Source of the DNA: Sulfurospirillaceae bacterium
GTDB lineage: Bacteria; Campylobacterota; Campylobacteria; Campylobacterales; Sulfurospirillaceae
Direction: 5' to 3'
Assembly: GCA_028684065.1 (NCBI GenBank)
Contig: JAQUGO010000009.1
Location: forward strand, 1 to 64,000
DNA length: 64,000 nucleotides
Part shown: positions 38,062-48,841 of the stretch, piece by piece
How the letters are laid out: every line of letters starts with the position of its first letter
How positions within the stretch are numbered: position 1 is the stretch's first letter
Program-made: the position numbers and the translations under genes
Notes under the pieces: model-generated
Seen by the model: only the letters and a program-made list of their open reading frames with translations
The model's database searches: none
What the model was told of the DNA's origin: nothing

Positions 38062-40260
38062 TTATAAACCACCGGTATAATTAATAACCAATTTTTTTGA
38101 TTTATAATCAATTTTTGCCACCCCACCCTCTTTGAGCGCCCCAAAGAGAACCTCTTCACTCAATGGTGTTTTAATGCGTTCTTGAATAACACGTTTCATC
38201 ACACGCGCACCCATTTCTTTACTGTAACCCTCACTGGCAAGATATTTTTTAGCATTTAAAGTCGCTTCAACGCGTACTTTTTTATCAGCTAATTGCTCGT
38301 TTAACTCGCGTAAAAACTTCTCAACGACATGTATCATAACTTCTTCACTCAAGCTTGAAAAATGGATAATTTCATCTAACCTATTTCTAAATTCAGGAGA
38401 GAAGAACTCTTTAACTGCATGATCAGTTTGTGAGTGTTCATTTTTCGTAAAGCCCATGGTTGGTGCTTCTTTCGTACCCAAGTTTGATGTCATGATGATA
38501 ATAACGTTGCGAAAATCTATCTTAGCCCCATTATTGTCGGTTAAGGTTGCGCTATCAAAAATTTGCAATAAGATGTTAAGCATATCAGGATGTGCTTTTT
38601 CAATTTCATCGAGCAAGAGTACCGTAAATGGATGTTTTTTAATTGCCTCGCTGAGCTGTCCACCCTCTTCATATCCAACATAGCCAGGAGGGGCACCAAT
38701 CAAACGACTCACCGTATGTTTTTCCATATATTCACTCATATCGTAACGCTCAAAATGAATTCCTAATTCAACGGCAAGCTGTTTAGCCACTTCTGTTTTT
38801 CCCACACCCGTTGGACCTGTAAATAAAAAAGAGCCTATAGGCGCTGTTGGATTTCCAAGTCCTGCTCGGCTTCGCTTAATGGCTTGAACCAATGCTTCAA
38901 TGGCTTTATCTTGTCCAAAAACATTGGCTTTAAGTTTATCTTCCAAATGGAACATGAGTGCATTTTCATCACTGGCTACTGTTCGGCTTGGAATATTAGC
39001 AATTTTGGCAAGAATTCCTTCAATATCTGCCATTTCAACAACTTTTTTCTTTTTCTTAAGGAGATGAAAAGAGGCACCTACCTCATCAATTAAATCAATT
39101 GCAGAATCCGGCAAAAACTTATCATTGATATATTTTTTAGCTAATTCTACAGAGGATCGAATCACATTTAATGGATATTTAACCCCATGGTGCTTTTCAT
39201 AACTCCCTTTAAGCCCTTTTAAAATCAAATAGGAATCTTCAATGCTAGGCTCTAAGATATCAATTTTTGCAAAACGACGACTTAGTGCTTTATCTTTATC
39301 AAAAAAGTTACGAAACTCGCCATATGTTGTAGCACCGATACAACGAATTTTTCCTGAAGCAAGGGCAGGTTTGAGTAAATTGGACAAATCCATCGATCCA
39401 CCACTTGTCGCACCCGCACCTACAATAGTGTGAATTTCATCAATAAAGAGAATAGAGTTTTCTTCAGCTTCTAACTCACTTAAAATATCTTTGAGACGTT
39501 TTTCAAAATCTCCTCGATATTTTGTTCCTGAGAGTAAAGCACCCATATCAAGAGCGTGCAACGATGCATTGGCTAATAAAGCAGGTACCTCTTTTTGAGC
39601 AATTTTTTGAGCTAATCCTTCGACAATGGCTGTTTTACCCACGCCTGGTTCGCCCACTAAAAGAGGGTTGTTTTTTTTACGACGGCATAACACTTGCATC
39701 AAACGATTTGTCTCGTCTATTCTTCCAATCAACGGATCTATCTGCTTCTTCTCAGCTAAGGCAATCAAATCAAGTGTATATTTTCTTAATGCACTTTCAT
39801 TTTCATCACTACCATTAGACTCTTTATCATGGGGGCTACTCTCAGCCGTTACCTCTTCAAGCACTTGTAAACGCTCAATGCCTTGTTGCATCAAAAGAGA
39901 AACGCAAAAGGTATTGGTTTCATCCAAAATAGCAACTAATAAATCTAAAACACTGGCTTCTTGCTTCCCCGCACTCTTGACATGTAACATCATTGTTTCA
40001 ATGACACGAGAAAGAGCAACTGTTTCAAGTGGTTCATACGTTTCGCTTTGTGGTACTATCTGAGGGTTAGCAATAAAATATTTCTCTAATGAGCGGTATA
40101 AAAACGGAACACTGGCCCCACAATTGGTTAAGATTTTGGCAACATTCTCATTATTTAAAAGGGCGAAGAAAACATGATCTATCGTAATATATTCATATCG
40201 GTGCTTTCGAACAAAAGCAACTGCATCATTAAAAACATAATTTAATTCTTGACTTACCAT
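38062..40260 (-). CDS. clpA: ATP-dependent Clp protease ATP-binding subunit ClpA
   Basis: ClpA unfolds substrates and feeds them to ClpP. The 732-residue protein has the N-terminal repeat domain that binds ClpS (residues 1-150), AAA module 1 with GEPGVGKT, the sensor region, and AAA module 2 with GPTGVGKT and L-L-D-E-I-E-K-A-H-P-D. The order and length match ClpA, not ClpB (no long middle coiled coil) or ClpC. An ACATGTAA motif inside encodes L-H-V-K at the end of the N-domain. It is flanked by clpS and aat. Confidence 0.96.
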   Translation of the reverse strand: MVSQELNYVFNDAVAFVRKHRYEYITIDHVFFALLNNENVAKILTNCGASVPFLYRSLEKYFIANPQIVPQSETYEPLETVALSRVIETMMLHVKSAGKQEASVLDLLVAILDETNTFCVSLLMQQGIERLQVLEEVTAESSPHDKESNGSDENESALRKYTLDLIALAEKKQIDPLIGRIDETNRLMQVLCRRKKNNPLLVGEPGVGKTAIVEGLAQKIAQKEVPALLANASLHALDMGALLSGTKYRGDFEKRLKDILSELEAEENSILFIDEIHTIVGAGATSGGSMDLSNLLKPALASGKIRCIGATTYGEFRNFFDKDKALSRRFAKIDILEPSIEDSYLILKGLKGSYEKHHGVKYPLNVIRSSVELAKKYINDKFLPDSAIDLIDEVGASFHLLKKKKKVVEMADIEGILAKIANIPSRTVASDENALMFHLEDKLKANVFGQDKAIEALVQAIKRSRAGLGNPTAPIGSFLFTGPTGVGKTEVAKQLAVELGIHFERYDMSEYMEKHTVSRLIGAPPGYVGYEEGGQLSEAIKKHPFTVLLLDEIEKAHPDMLNILLQIFDSATLTDNNGAKIDFRNVIIIMTSNLGTKEAPTMGFTKNEHSQTDHAVKEFFSPEFRNRLDEIIHFSSLSEEVMIHVVEKFLRELNEQLADKKVRVEATLNAKKYLASEGYSKEMGARVMKRVIQERIKTPLSEEVLFGALKEGGVAKIDYKSKKLVINYTGGL

Positions 40261-40271
40261 TATCTCTCCTT

Positions 40272-40580
40272 TTACGCTTCTTCCATCACAGCTCTGAGAG
40301 GAAATCCAGCCTCTTTTGCTGATTTGCGTACATGCGATACTTTTGTTTCAGCTATCTCATACGTATATATTCCACACAAGCCTCGTCCTTTGTCATGAAC
40401 ACTCAGCATAATATCCATTGCTTTCTCATAACTATGATGAAAAATCTGCATTAAAACACTAATCACAAAATCCATACTGCTGTAATCATCATTGAGCAAC
40501 AAAACCTTAAAAAGCCTAGGCTCTTTAATATCATTTAATTCAAGTGTATCGTTTTCAAATTCATGCTCTAGCTTATGCAA
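40272..40580 (-). CDS. clpS: ClpS adaptor (N-degron recognin)
   Basis: A 102-residue adaptor that binds N-terminal Leu, Phe, Tyr or Trp and delivers proteins to ClpA. Visible marks are the flexible acidic N-terminus, V-L-L-L-N-D-D-Y-S-S-M-D-F-V (the Asn-Asp pair at the pocket), H-x-x-G-x-G-L-C-G-I-Y-T-Y-E-I-A-E-T-K-V and the end G-F-P-L-R-A. It starts the clpS-clpA-aat unit; the thioredoxin-like lipoprotein gene upstream ends nine bases before. Confidence 0.95.
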   Translation of the reverse strand: MHKLEHEFENDTLELNDIKEPRLFKVLLLNDDYSSMDFVISVLMQIFHHSYEKAMDIMLSVHDKGRGLCGIYTYEIAETKVSHVRKSAKEAGFPLRAVMEEA

Positions 40581-41248: not shown

Positions 41249-41713
41249 CTACTCTTTATACATATGATTTTTAATAGCAATCTTGGCTTCTCTTATAGCA
41301 TCTTTTTCTTTCAATGTTTCACGCTTATCATGTAGATTCTTACCTCTTGCCAAAGCAATTTCTAGTTTGACAAGATTTCGGGCATTAAAATACATCGATA
41401 GAGGAACGATAGTTAAACCATCCTTTGCTACTTTTGCATCCAATTTAAAAATCTCTTTGGCATGCATTAATAGTTTTCTATCGGTTCGCTCACCTCGTGC
41501 AAAATGCATATTGGCTGTGCTCAAATGTGAAATATGAGCATTCAGTAAAAACGCTTCACCTTTTATGATACGTACAAAAGAGTCTTTTAAATTAACGCGT
41601 CCTTGACGGATAGCTTTCACTTCACTACCTTGAAGAACGATACCCACTTCATACTTTTCAAGTATTTCATAATCATGAAATGCCTTTTTATTTCTTGCTA
41701 CCGGTTCACCCAT
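41249..41713 (-). CDS. smpB: SsrA (tmRNA)-binding protein SmpB
   Basis: SmpB brings tmRNA to stalled ribosomes so that the nascent chain is tagged for proteolysis. The 154-residue protein has [27 protein letters not shown], and the end L-A-R-G-K-x-x-H-D-K-R-E-x-x-K-x-K-D. The ATG overlaps the ispE stop by eight bases with AGGAT upstream. The tmRNA gene itself is not in this window. Confidence 0.97.
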
Positions 41714-45588: not shown

Positions 45589-45759
45589 TGCATTTCTACT
45601 TTTTTGATGAGTTAATATGTAAATTGTATTTTATTATATCTAAAAATATTTAAGGCAAGCTCTAAAAATAAACTATTGTTTTTACTATTATTTTTAGTTA
45701 TAATAATGAACATTTTTTATGAAAATTCAAAAAAGATTATTTCGTCAAAGGACCACACA

Positions 45760-46671
45760 ATGCTTAAGGATTTCTCAAAAATAGAAACTTTTTTAACTGT
45801 CGTTAGAGAAAAAAGTTTTTCTAAAGCCTCTAAAAAATTAGGAATCAGTCAACCTGCTGTCACGCAACAAATTAAGTTGCTTGAAGAGTATCTTGACACA
45901 CAAATTGTTGATCGTAAAAAAAATGGAATCAAGCTTACAACAGCAGGTGAAGAACTTTATAAAGTGGCTTTGAAATTGGAGAAATATATTCTCTCTGCAG
46001 AACGAGAAATGCTAAGACTTGTCAATAAAGAGGTTATTTTTATTTTAGGAGCATCTCCTGTGATTGGAAACTATATCCTACCCGATTTTCTAAACGATAT
46101 TCAAGAGGGCATTAAAAATAAAGTTATGCTACGCGTCGATAATGCAAACGAAATAACAGAAAAGCTCGTTGATAAAAAAGTCGACTTAGCTTTATTAGAA
46201 GCTCCAAACTTTAATGAAAACTTAATTTATAGAGAATGGATGGAAGATGAATTAGTTATCGCAAGTCGTACTCCTCTTCCTAAAATTATCAAAAAAGAAG
46301 ATCTTTTTACATTTAATTGGATTTGTAGAGAAGAAGAATCTAGCACACGAAAAATTATTCATGAATCTTTTGAAAAAATAGATGTCGATTGCAAAAGTTT
46401 TAACATTAAAAGTATTGTAACCAGTTCAACAGCCGTCAAACAAACTCTACTTAAAGCAAGTGATGAAGGGGTGCCTACTGTTTCTATTCTGTCTAAATAT
46501 ATTATTGCAGATGAAGTTGAAAATGGTCAGCTATTTACCTCAAAACTTAAAGGGCTAAAACTTACACGGATGCTTTATCTATGTTATATTAAAGATAGAA
46601 AGCATGATGCCCTGATTGATAATGTTATTAATTTTATTATGAGTAAGCAAGCCCCAAAACCTTCTTTATAA
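45760..46671 (+). CDS. LysR-family transcription regulator
   Basis: A 303-residue regulator with an N-terminal winged helix-turn-helix (F-L-T-V-V-R-E-K-S-F-S-K-A-S-K-K-L-G-I-S-Q-P-A-V-T-Q-Q-I) and a C-terminal substrate-binding fold (I-L-G-A-S-P-V-I-G-N-Y). The start ATG 45760 has AAAGGA eight bases upstream and gives the normal N-terminus; the longer frame from 45676 adds a hydrophobic stretch that is not LysR-like. It is divergent from uvrD across about 170 bases of AT-rich DNA and no obvious target gene is divergent to it, so the effector and regulon are unknown. Confidence 0.93.
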   Translation: MLKDFSKIETFLTVVREKSFSKASKKLGISQPAVTQQIKLLEEYLDTQIVDRKKNGIKLTTAGEELYKVALKLEKYILSAEREMLRLVNKEVIFILGASPVIGNYILPDFLNDIQEGIKNKVMLRVDNANEITEKLVDKKVDLALLEAPNFNENLIYREWMEDELVIASRTPLPKIIKKEDLFTFNWICREEESSTRKIIHESFEKIDVDCKSFNIKSIVTSSTAVKQTLLKASDEGVPTVSILSKYIIADEVENGQLFTSKLKGLKLTRMLYLCYIKDRKHDALIDNVINFIMSKQAPKPSL

Positions 46672-46674
46672 GAT

Positions 46675-47127
46675 TTAGCGTTTTAATAGCTTTTGGTTCT
46701 CAGGATTAGCCATTAATGCATCCATTGAACGCTTAACTCCCTCTTGAGTAGGTTTTTTTTCTTCTATTTTAGGGGGTGTACTTAAATTAATAAAAACAGG
46801 AATTTCTTCAACAATTATTTGCAAAATAGCATGCATAGGTACATTCACAATAGAGCCAAAATTTTCACTTCCAAAACCTGCTTCAAAACTCATTGTTTCA
46901 CTACTAAGTTGCGTACTTTCAAAAGTATATCCTGCTAAAAAAAACATTGTAATAGGTTTGAAGTTTTGACTAATCTCAACAGGAAGGATGGGGTCAAACT
47001 CTACATCTGCGATATTCGTTAAAATAGAAAAATTGATACCCTCTTTCAGTAAAAAAGAAACTACTTCATTAGCATGTTTTTTCATAAGCTGATTAAAATT
47101 ATTATGACCTAGTAGTGATTCAAGCAT
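46675..47127 (-). CDS. SspB-like protein (candidate ClpX adaptor)
   Basis: A 150-residue protein usually left as hypothetical. Residues about 15-115 resemble the SspB fold: an N-terminal helix (V-V-S-F-L-L-K-E-G-I-N-F), strands, then M-S-F-E-A-G-F-G-S followed by V-N-V-P-M-H-A-I-L-Q-I-I-V-E-E. E. coli SspB has F-N-A-R-F-G-G followed by V-P-L-A-A-V-L-A-I-Y-A-R-E here (from memory). After about 115 comes a Pro/Lys/Glu-rich linker and a basic end L-L-K-R, like the flexible tail and ClpX-binding end of SspB. ATG 47127 has AAGGA seven bases before it; it overlaps the pepF end. Function is inferred, not shown. Confidence 0.6.
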   Translation of the reverse strand: MLESLLGHNNFNQLMKKHANEVVSFLLKEGINFSILTNIADVEFDPILPVEISQNFKPITMFFLAGYTFESTQLSSETMSFEAGFGSENFGSIVNVPMHAILQIIVEEIPVFINLSTPPKIEEKKPTQEGVKRSMDALMANPENQKLLKR

Positions 47128-48841
47128 CACTCATTCCTTGAAATTCTTCTAATATACCTTTCACTTCTGTGATTCCTAGATTCCAAAACCCTTCATCTTC
47201 AATATCAAAATTAAATTTTTCAATCAATGCTTTAGGACTTTGACTTCCACCTGCCGATAAAAAGCTAATATAATTTTTGACAAACTCCTCTTTATTACTT
47301 TTTTTATAAAGTCCATACAAAGCTAGAACCAAGAGTTGTCCATAACTATAGGCATAGCAATAAAAAGGGGAATGAATAAAATGGGGAATGTAACTCCACC
47401 AAACTTTATAATTTTCGCTCAAAGCAATACTCGAACCAAACATTTTCGTACTCTCTTGCATCCAATACGTATTAAACGTTTCAAGAGAAAGTTCGCCATC
47501 ATGGGAGTGAACACGTCTTTCAAAAGTTGTAAAATTGATTTGACGATAGAGCGTCGAAAAAATATCTTCGATCTTAGATGCGTATAAAGAAAGTTTTTCC
47601 TTACCAGACAAGGTTCCTTTAATATAATCAAATACCAACATTTCTGCAAAAACTGAAGCCGTCTCTGAAGTCGTTAAAGGTGTATCACTGCCCAAATAAC
47701 CCACATCAGAAGAGAGATGTTGATGAATAGCATGTCCTAGCTCATGGGCTAATGTGAAGAGATCACGTCGCGTATTTGTATGATTTAATAGCACATAAGG
47801 ATGTGTATCTGGTGTTGCTGGATGCGAAAATGCACCGCCTCTTTTTTTATTTTTTGGAAGCACATCAATCCAACCTTCATTAAAAGCACGTAATGCAATT
47901 TCATAGAATTTTGGACTAAACTGATAAAAAGCATCCAAAACAATTGCTTTTGCAGTAGGAAAATCATACTCCGTTTTACTTTCATCTAAAGGGGCATATC
48001 TATCATATTCATACAATGTTTCAAGGCCTAATAATTGTGCTTTCTTTTTATAATATAAATGGACTAAATCAAAGCTATCCTCAGCACTTTTTATTAAAGC
48101 GTCTACACTTTTTTGTGTTATTTTATTGTCCATATGGCGTGATTGTTCTGCATTTTTATACCCTCTTAGTTCACAATCATTGGCAAGATCTGCTTTAATC
48201 ATATTAAAGATATACCCAAGCAGTGGTTGGTGAGGTTTCAATCCTTTGGTAAAAATATCAGCTGCTTTTTTACGTACTTCCCGTGAACTATCTTGTAGCT
48301 TACTCAGAATTTCCTCTTCAGATATTTTTTTACCATCATAATTGAATTTTAAGAGGCTAAAGTGTTCATCAAATAATCGGCTAAAGGCAGAAGCCGAAGT
48401 CATCTCTTTTTTCAATAAAATACGTTCTTCTTTTTGACTTAACTGATAAGGTTTTTCTTCTGCTAGTGAACTTAAAAAATAAGAATAGCGTGAACAATGA
48501 CCAATTAATTCATCTTGTTTAACTTTAGTTAATTTATTAAACTCTAATTCAAAAAAAAGTAAGTGCTCTGCAATATGCGCTTGTTTTTGTTGATACTTTG
48601 CGTAGAATGCACCATTCTCACTATTTTCAGCAAACTTCAAAAAAGCATATGTCATCATTTTGCCTAAGACTTGATTGATGGCTTCATACTCCATAATAGC
48701 TTCTGAAAATTCTCGAGAAGAAACTTCTTTAAGCTTTCCTTTGTAAACAGTTTCAAAACCTATGGCACGTTGTGCCACATCATTAGAATCTTGTTCCAAG
48801 AAGGTTTCATTTTTATATAATGCTGTTAAATCCCAATTCAA
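47120..48841 (-). CDS. pepF: Oligoendopeptidase F (M3 family)
   Basis: A 573-residue cytoplasmic zinc peptidase that degrades short peptides. The zinc motif is F-T-L-A-H-E-L-G-H-A-I-H-Q-H (HExxH) with the downstream Glu in T-T-S-E-T-A-S-V-F-A-E. The N-terminal W-D-L-T-A-L-Y matches the family. It starts with TTG: an in-frame TGA lies a few codons upstream, AAAGGG is six bases before the TTG, and there is no ATG near. An extended -10 box lies at 48899-48907. Confidence 0.93.
   Translation of the reverse strand: MNWDLTALYKNETFLEQDSNDVAQRAIGFETVYKGKLKEVSSREFSEAIMEYEAINQVLGKMMTYAFLKFAENSENGAFYAKYQQKQAHIAEHLLFFELEFNKLTKVKQDELIGHCSRYSYFLSSLAEEKPYQLSQKEERILLKKEMTSASAFSRLFDEHFSLLKFNYDGKKISEEEILSKLQDSSREVRKKAADIFTKGLKPHQPLLGYIFNMIKADLANDCELRGYKNAEQSRHMDNKITQKSVDALIKSAEDSFDLVHLYYKKKAQLLGLETLYEYDRYAPLDESKTEYDFPTAKAIVLDAFYQFSPKFYEIALRAFNEGWIDVLPKNKKRGGAFSHPATPDTHPYVLLNHTNTRRDLFTLAHELGHAIHQHLSSDVGYLGSDTPLTTSETASVFAEMLVFDYIKGTLSGKEKLSLYASKIEDIFSTLYRQINFTTFERRVHSHDGELSLETFNTYWMQESTKMFGSSIALSENYKVWWSYIPHFIHSPFYCYAYSYGQLLVLALYGLYKKSNKEEFVKNYISFLSAGGSQSPKALIEKFNFDIEDEGFWNLGITEVKGILEEFQGMSDA

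Follow-up and report, generated by a model that had tools for sequence, protein, structure and literature searches.

SspB hands tmRNA-tagged proteins to ClpXP. Does the phylum Campylobacterota encode such an adaptor? The question is raised by one gene on contig JAQUGO010000009.1 of a Sulfurospirillaceae bacterium, of which we analysed positions 1 to 64,000 (the window). A first-pass annotation had proposed that this gene encodes a diverged SspB-like protein, and that an SspB-type adaptor had not been described in the phylum. The latter statement stands as far as the literature could be searched: we found no paper on SspB in Campylobacterota, and SspB is predicted to be absent from Helicobacter pylori (PMC2584231). 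The closest named relatives are Sulfurospirillum and Sulfurospirillaceae, in line with an origin of the window in that family.

The gene and its neighbourhood

The protein had been described as 150 residues long and encoded between pepF and a LysR gene, with smpB about 5 kb away; the open reading frame, both neighbours (Pfam) and the position of smpB were all verified. The genes and the putative ribosome-binding site are as follows.

46675..47127, minus strand: SspB-like coding sequence of 150 codons, ATG at 47127, stop codon at 46675-46677 (open reading frame)
47135..47139, minus strand: AAGGA, a Shine-Dalgarno-like site 7 nt before the ATG (direct sequence reading)
47120..48841, minus strand: pepF, oligopeptidase F (Peptidase_M3, Pfam); upstream neighbour in several families (synteny)
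45676..46671, plus strand: LysR-type regulator (Pfam), convergent downstream neighbour
41249..41713, minus strand: smpB, the tmRNA partner (PF01668, E=2e-54), ~5 kb from the SspB-like gene and in the same conserved block (synteny)
40272..40580, minus strand: clpS adaptor (PF02617)
38062..40260, minus strand: clpA unfoldase (AAA_2 and Clp_N domains)

An alternative GTG start one codon upstream of the ATG would give 151 residues. There is an 8-bp overlap between the end of pepF and the start of the gene, probably a sign of translational coupling. The LysR-type gene converges on the SspB-like gene across a 3-bp gap, an arrangement kept across several families; synteny places this neighbour in both Sulfurospirillaceae and Sulfurimonadaceae. 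Beyond it, the order on the minus strand is uvrD, truB, csrA, ispE, smpB, a thioredoxin-fold gene, clpS and clpA. Conservation of the smpB/clp neighbourhood is not universal, which counts against reading the gene product as a ClpXP adaptor. The sspA-sspB operon is typical of gammaproteobacteria; the neighbours found here by synteny are instead pepF, lysR, uvrD and pyrB. ClpS, the ClpA adaptor for N-degrons, shares with the SspB-like protein a role as Clp adaptor and the gene block, but belongs to a different family and fold.

Kinship to SspB in sequence and predicted fold

The sole Pfam match of the protein was SspB (PF04386; E=0.087, 13.3 bits against a gathering cut-off of 27), and the sole NCBIfam match was likewise an SspB model (E=0.021). 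The score lies well under the Pfam cut-off, hence the annotation 'hypothetical'. Among 68 homologues, SspB recurred in 11 in the Pfam scan (best E 0.0029) and the next family in 2, while each of the six commonest NCBIfam models bore the name 'ClpXP protease specificity-enhancing factor' (matched in up to 14/68, best E 1.9e-4). As hhalign against nine gamma/beta SspB sequences returned a probability of just 31%, we used a column-shuffle test instead of relying on that value; the profile-profile domain score was 26.5, against a maximum of 22.7 in 200 column-shuffled controls. The alignment places FEAGFG on FNARFG and VPMHAILQI on VPLAAVLAI, so that, by hhalign and with a score above all 200 shuffles, the FxAxFG ... 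VP..A core of SspB is present. In this comparison the FEAGFG...VPMHAILQIIVEE stretch (residues 81-108), which had first been aligned with the SspB core by eye, lies on SspB FNARFG...VPLAAVLAIYARE.

PF04386 scored above its gathering cut-off in 0 of 200 Campylobacterota genomes. Searched directly on genome DNA it gave no match in the gene's own genome, and the few sub-threshold matches in the DNA of other genomes fell mostly in long unrelated frames. Profiles built from the family itself were used instead. Neither the single protein nor profiles retrieved SspB when the PDB was searched by sequence; the low E-values of the wide profile there were rejected as matches to repeated short helices of designed repeat proteins. 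A scan of viral contigs with E. coli SspB gave no match.

The AF2 model of the protein, built with 63 homologues, had a pLDDT of 87 and a pTM of 0.72, with pLDDT >90 over most of residues 1-115; that of a distant homologue (44% identical) had a pLDDT of 82 and a pTM of 0.69, the two runs having many alignment rows in common and not being fully independent. With both models, the first 19 Foldseek matches were all SspB chains of the PDB (probability 0.99-1.00, E down to 9e-5), from E. coli, H. influenzae, Caulobacter and Agrobacterium, and the next non-SspB match had an E of 0.23-0.24. VIA-align gave Z scores for SspB entries of 9.0-11.2 (the protein) and 8.7-11.1 (the distant homologue) over 101-115 residues; below them came a designed SH3-like barrel, at Z 7.4 and 6.8 respectively, and then Hfq at a Z close to 5. 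The predicted fold is clearly separated from other folds. A profile search and a structure prediction against SspB had been set in the first-pass annotation as the check that could refute it; both returned SspB and no unrelated fold, and the SspB-like identity is supported by the weak Pfam and NCBIfam matches, the scans of 68 homologues and the two AF2 models.

The protein is laid out as follows, all on the minus strand.

46783..47127, minus strand: residues 1-115, globular SspB-fold domain, a long N-terminal helix followed by a small beta barrel (AF2, fold search)
46870..46887, minus strand: residues 81-86, F-E-A-G-F-G signature, on SspB F-N-A-R-F-G (hhalign)
46804..46842, minus strand: residues 96-108, V-P-M-H-A-I-L-Q-I-I-V-E-E strand, on SspB V-P-L-A-A-V-L-A-I-Y-A-R-E (hhalign)
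46729..46782, minus strand: residues 116-133, variable Pro/charged linker (low conservation; pLDDT <50 at residues 122-126)
46678..46728, minus strand: residues 134-150, conserved C-terminal tail SMDALMANPENQKLLKR, a proposed ClpX-docking peptide (conservation)

This succession of domain, linker and tail, noticed at first in the one protein, holds across the 68 homologues. Among these, F33, F44, P46, L48, P49, F62, Y67, F81-G86, N89, V94, P97, Q103 and N114 are nearly or fully invariant (F81 and G84 without exception, P97 and Q103 in no less than 90%). The tail has the consensus S-M-x-A-[FL]-x-x-N-P-x-N-x-K-[FL]-[LFI]-K, with S134 in 64/68, N141 in 62/68, P142 in 60/68 and N144 in 64/68, despite the freely varying linker before it; it is shortened in a few lineages (for example L140 and L154).

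SspB of gamma- and betaproteobacteria (E. coli b3228, H. influenzae; PF04386; PDB 1ox9, 1ou8, 8et3) has the same predicted fold over ~100 residues, the FxAxFG...VP..A core in register, a flexible linker, a conserved C-terminal peptide and a similar length (165 residues against 150). The Campylobacterota protein differs from it in having 9-20% identity in structural alignment and a score under the Pfam cut-off, in its gene neighbour (pepF rather than sspA) and in its tail, which reads SMxAFLSNPxNxKLLK where gamma/beta SspB has RPxLRVVK. In addition, the Arg of FNARFG is replaced by a Gly that is invariant in the Campylobacterota family. The best structural Z scores, 11.2 and 11.0, were obtained with the alphaproteobacterial orthologue (Caulobacter 2qas/2qaz; Agrobacterium 2nys), an already accepted, strongly diverged SspB that is ~9% identical to the protein. 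We file the family as an SspB-like homologue rather than as a member of PF04386, because its score is below the Pfam cut-off and its tail, though conserved and preceded by a linker, lacks the R-P-x-L-x-V-V-K docking (XB) motif of SspB.

Distribution and co-variation with the tmRNA tag

A homologue is present in 42 of 44 genomes of the host family. The first profile found the gene in 385 of 397 genomes of the phylum and in 66 of 68 genera, at one copy per genome, and a wider profile recovered 2 of the 12 missed genomes (387/397). Four drafts (G009, G011, G230 and G378) gave no family match and have an intact tmRNA tag motif, which counts against the adaptor reading; assembly gaps are a possible cause. 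The gene is absent from G370, a genome of one of the two gene-less genera described below. This single contig has uvrD directly after pepF, the matched ends being 15 bp apart, and its whole sequence has no family-profile match with E<0.19; in relatives of its family (L130, L131, L146) the SspB-like gene lies exactly in the pepF-uvrD gap. G370 (L336-L431) also shows no clpS match (E<=1e-5) in the presence of clpA, and may have lost both Clp adaptors. The copies in G038 and G032 carry in-frame stops or frame breaks and are possibly recent pseudogenes or assembly errors. One homologue, annotated 'hypothetical protein', occurs in Sulfurovum mangrovi, where the record is that of a plasmid of 395 kb (NZ_CP087125.1:233971-234321).

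The part of the E. coli tag bound by SspB is AANDENY (PMC8512704). The tmRNA tag of the gene's own genome is ANNSNYRPAYAVA, with the N-terminal segment ANNSNY; together with the alanine of tmRNA, A-A-N-N-S-N-Y agrees with AANDENY at 5 of 7 positions, and the host tag thus has an SspB-type N-terminal segment. The tag survey took in 70 genomes, with one misreading (G204). Where the gene is present, the tag is [AV]-N-N-x-[NDKS]-[YF] phylum-wide. In the 57 genomes with both the gene and a readable tag, the Tyr7 position is Y or F in all 57 and the Asn3 position is Asn in 56, the exception being an Asp in G216, from a genus with among the most diverged copies.

The tags of the gene-less genera are different. 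Genus g31 (4 genomes) has AN[NT][NK]KLAPAYARAA and genus g54 (3 genomes) has ANKKELAPAYAYAA, which starts ANKKEL; in both, the aromatic residue is replaced by Leu. The two genera belong to different families, indicating two separate loss events. Fisher's test gave p ~7e-7 when genomes were counted (58 were used, not 57), a value that is overstated because the genomes are related, and the co-variation draws on only two clear loss lineages. Separately, G339 (L323), in which no gene was detectable, has the tag AKNTNYSPAYALAA, with Asn3 changed to Lys and the aromatic residue kept, while its congener G178, which has the gene, has ANNTNYRPAYAVA; judged from these sequences, G339 is a possible third case of loss with tag change.

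H. pylori cannot do without trans-translation, and its stress resistance and DNA uptake are influenced by tagging. Its tmRNA has the resume codon GUA at 84-86 and a tag ending in AKAA (PMC2584231), and papers from one group describe the tag as being without the SspB recognition motif (PMC2584231, PMC2862035). The genomes of genus g19 that we read encode a tmRNA of 386 nt, with a tag that begins with Val (nt 84) and finishes in AKAA (VNNTDYAPAYAKAA in G085). These features match the H. pylori tmRNA as published, and on that basis g19 is probably the genus of this species. The SspB-like gene is present in g19, and (A)VNNTDY has A1, N3 and Y7 in common with AANDENY. In Campylobacter jejuni, the counterpart is, from gene order, probably Cj1100, a hypothetical protein of unknown function encoded between PepF (Cj1099) and UvrD (Cj1101) (PMC4004267). 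We consider it likely that this family is an unrecognised, phylum-wide SspB that brings ANNxNY-tagged proteins to ClpXP, in H. pylori and probably in C. jejuni as well, by a new C-terminal docking motif. The matter is of weight since SspB was reported missing from H. pylori. If SspB is what this family is, an entire phylum gains a single-copy gene for the delivery step that it was missing, the SspB docking motif proves replaceable, and the joint change of tag and adaptor is a natural experiment on tag recognition.

Proposed docking on ClpX and competing readings

What computation supports is the predicted fold, the sequence conservation, the domain layout and the tag changes at gene loss. With good confidence we regard the gene product as a distant SspB homologue that acts as a ClpXP delivery adaptor; tag binding, ClpX docking and stimulated degradation are what we infer for it. 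The small beta-barrel domain would grip the tmRNA tag by its N-terminal half (in the host, ANNSNY), the flexible linker would allow the conserved tail to reach ClpX and dock there on the zinc domain at the N-terminus, and docking would lead to the C-terminal end of the tag being fed into the ClpX pore.

No match to the ClpX N-domain profile (PF06689, E<=0.01) was obtained in 27 of 397 genomes, among them all seven genomes of g31 and g54; the seven genomes unlisted in this survey were deduced by comparison with the gene-distribution list. The set takes in 20 of the 387 gene-bearing genomes, mostly Helicobacter-type; the Helicobacter-type genera in it have an SspB-like copy that is diverged. Loss of the domain in the adaptor-less genera was considered and rejected on reading the ClpX proteins, in which the diverged domain keeps its cysteines. 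The divergence of this domain agrees with a partnership of SspB and ClpX, though by itself it is a weak sign.

It is possible, but unlikely, that the SspB-fold protein delivers tagged or other cargo to another unfoldase (such as ClpA, encoded nearby, or Lon) via its unusual tail. The difference of the tail from the XB motif, the presence of clpA and clpS in the same block as the SspB-like gene in Sulfurospirillaceae, and the divergence of C4-type ClpX N-domains in gene-bearing Helicobacter-type genera would all fit such a role. However, a C4 zinc-type ClpX N-terminus is kept in the genomes examined, the genera in which the ClpX N-domain has diverged most include the adaptor-less ones, and the linkage of the SspB-like gene to clpA is not general.

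We give somewhat less credence still to an SspB-fold adaptor for untagged regulatory substrates, in the way that E. coli SspB handles RseA, in which tag binding would have become secondary or disappeared. According to the title of PDB 1yfn, there is more than one mode of peptide binding by the barrel of E. coli SspB, and the invariant Gly in place of the FxARFG Arg means that the groove must differ from that of SspB. Against this, the Asn3 and Tyr7 tag positions are kept in 56-57 of 57 gene-bearing genomes, and the two gene-less genera are precisely those without Tyr7. An unrelated small barrel of Sm/Hfq or WYL type, binding RNA or other nucleic acid and merely resembling SspB, is very improbable and was set aside on the gap in Z, as Hfq- and WYL-type barrels do appear lower in the fold list (Z 4.6-6.3) but all SspB chains are far higher (Z 8.7-11.2, in alignments of >100 residues that take in the N-terminal helix), and the sequence profiles are independent evidence for SspB.

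As to the proposed partner of the SspB-like adaptor, many genomes of Sulfurimonadaceae and Arcobacteraceae encode two proteins with a ClpX-type zinc N-domain, that is, two ClpX-like paralogues (for example G156, L236 and L264).
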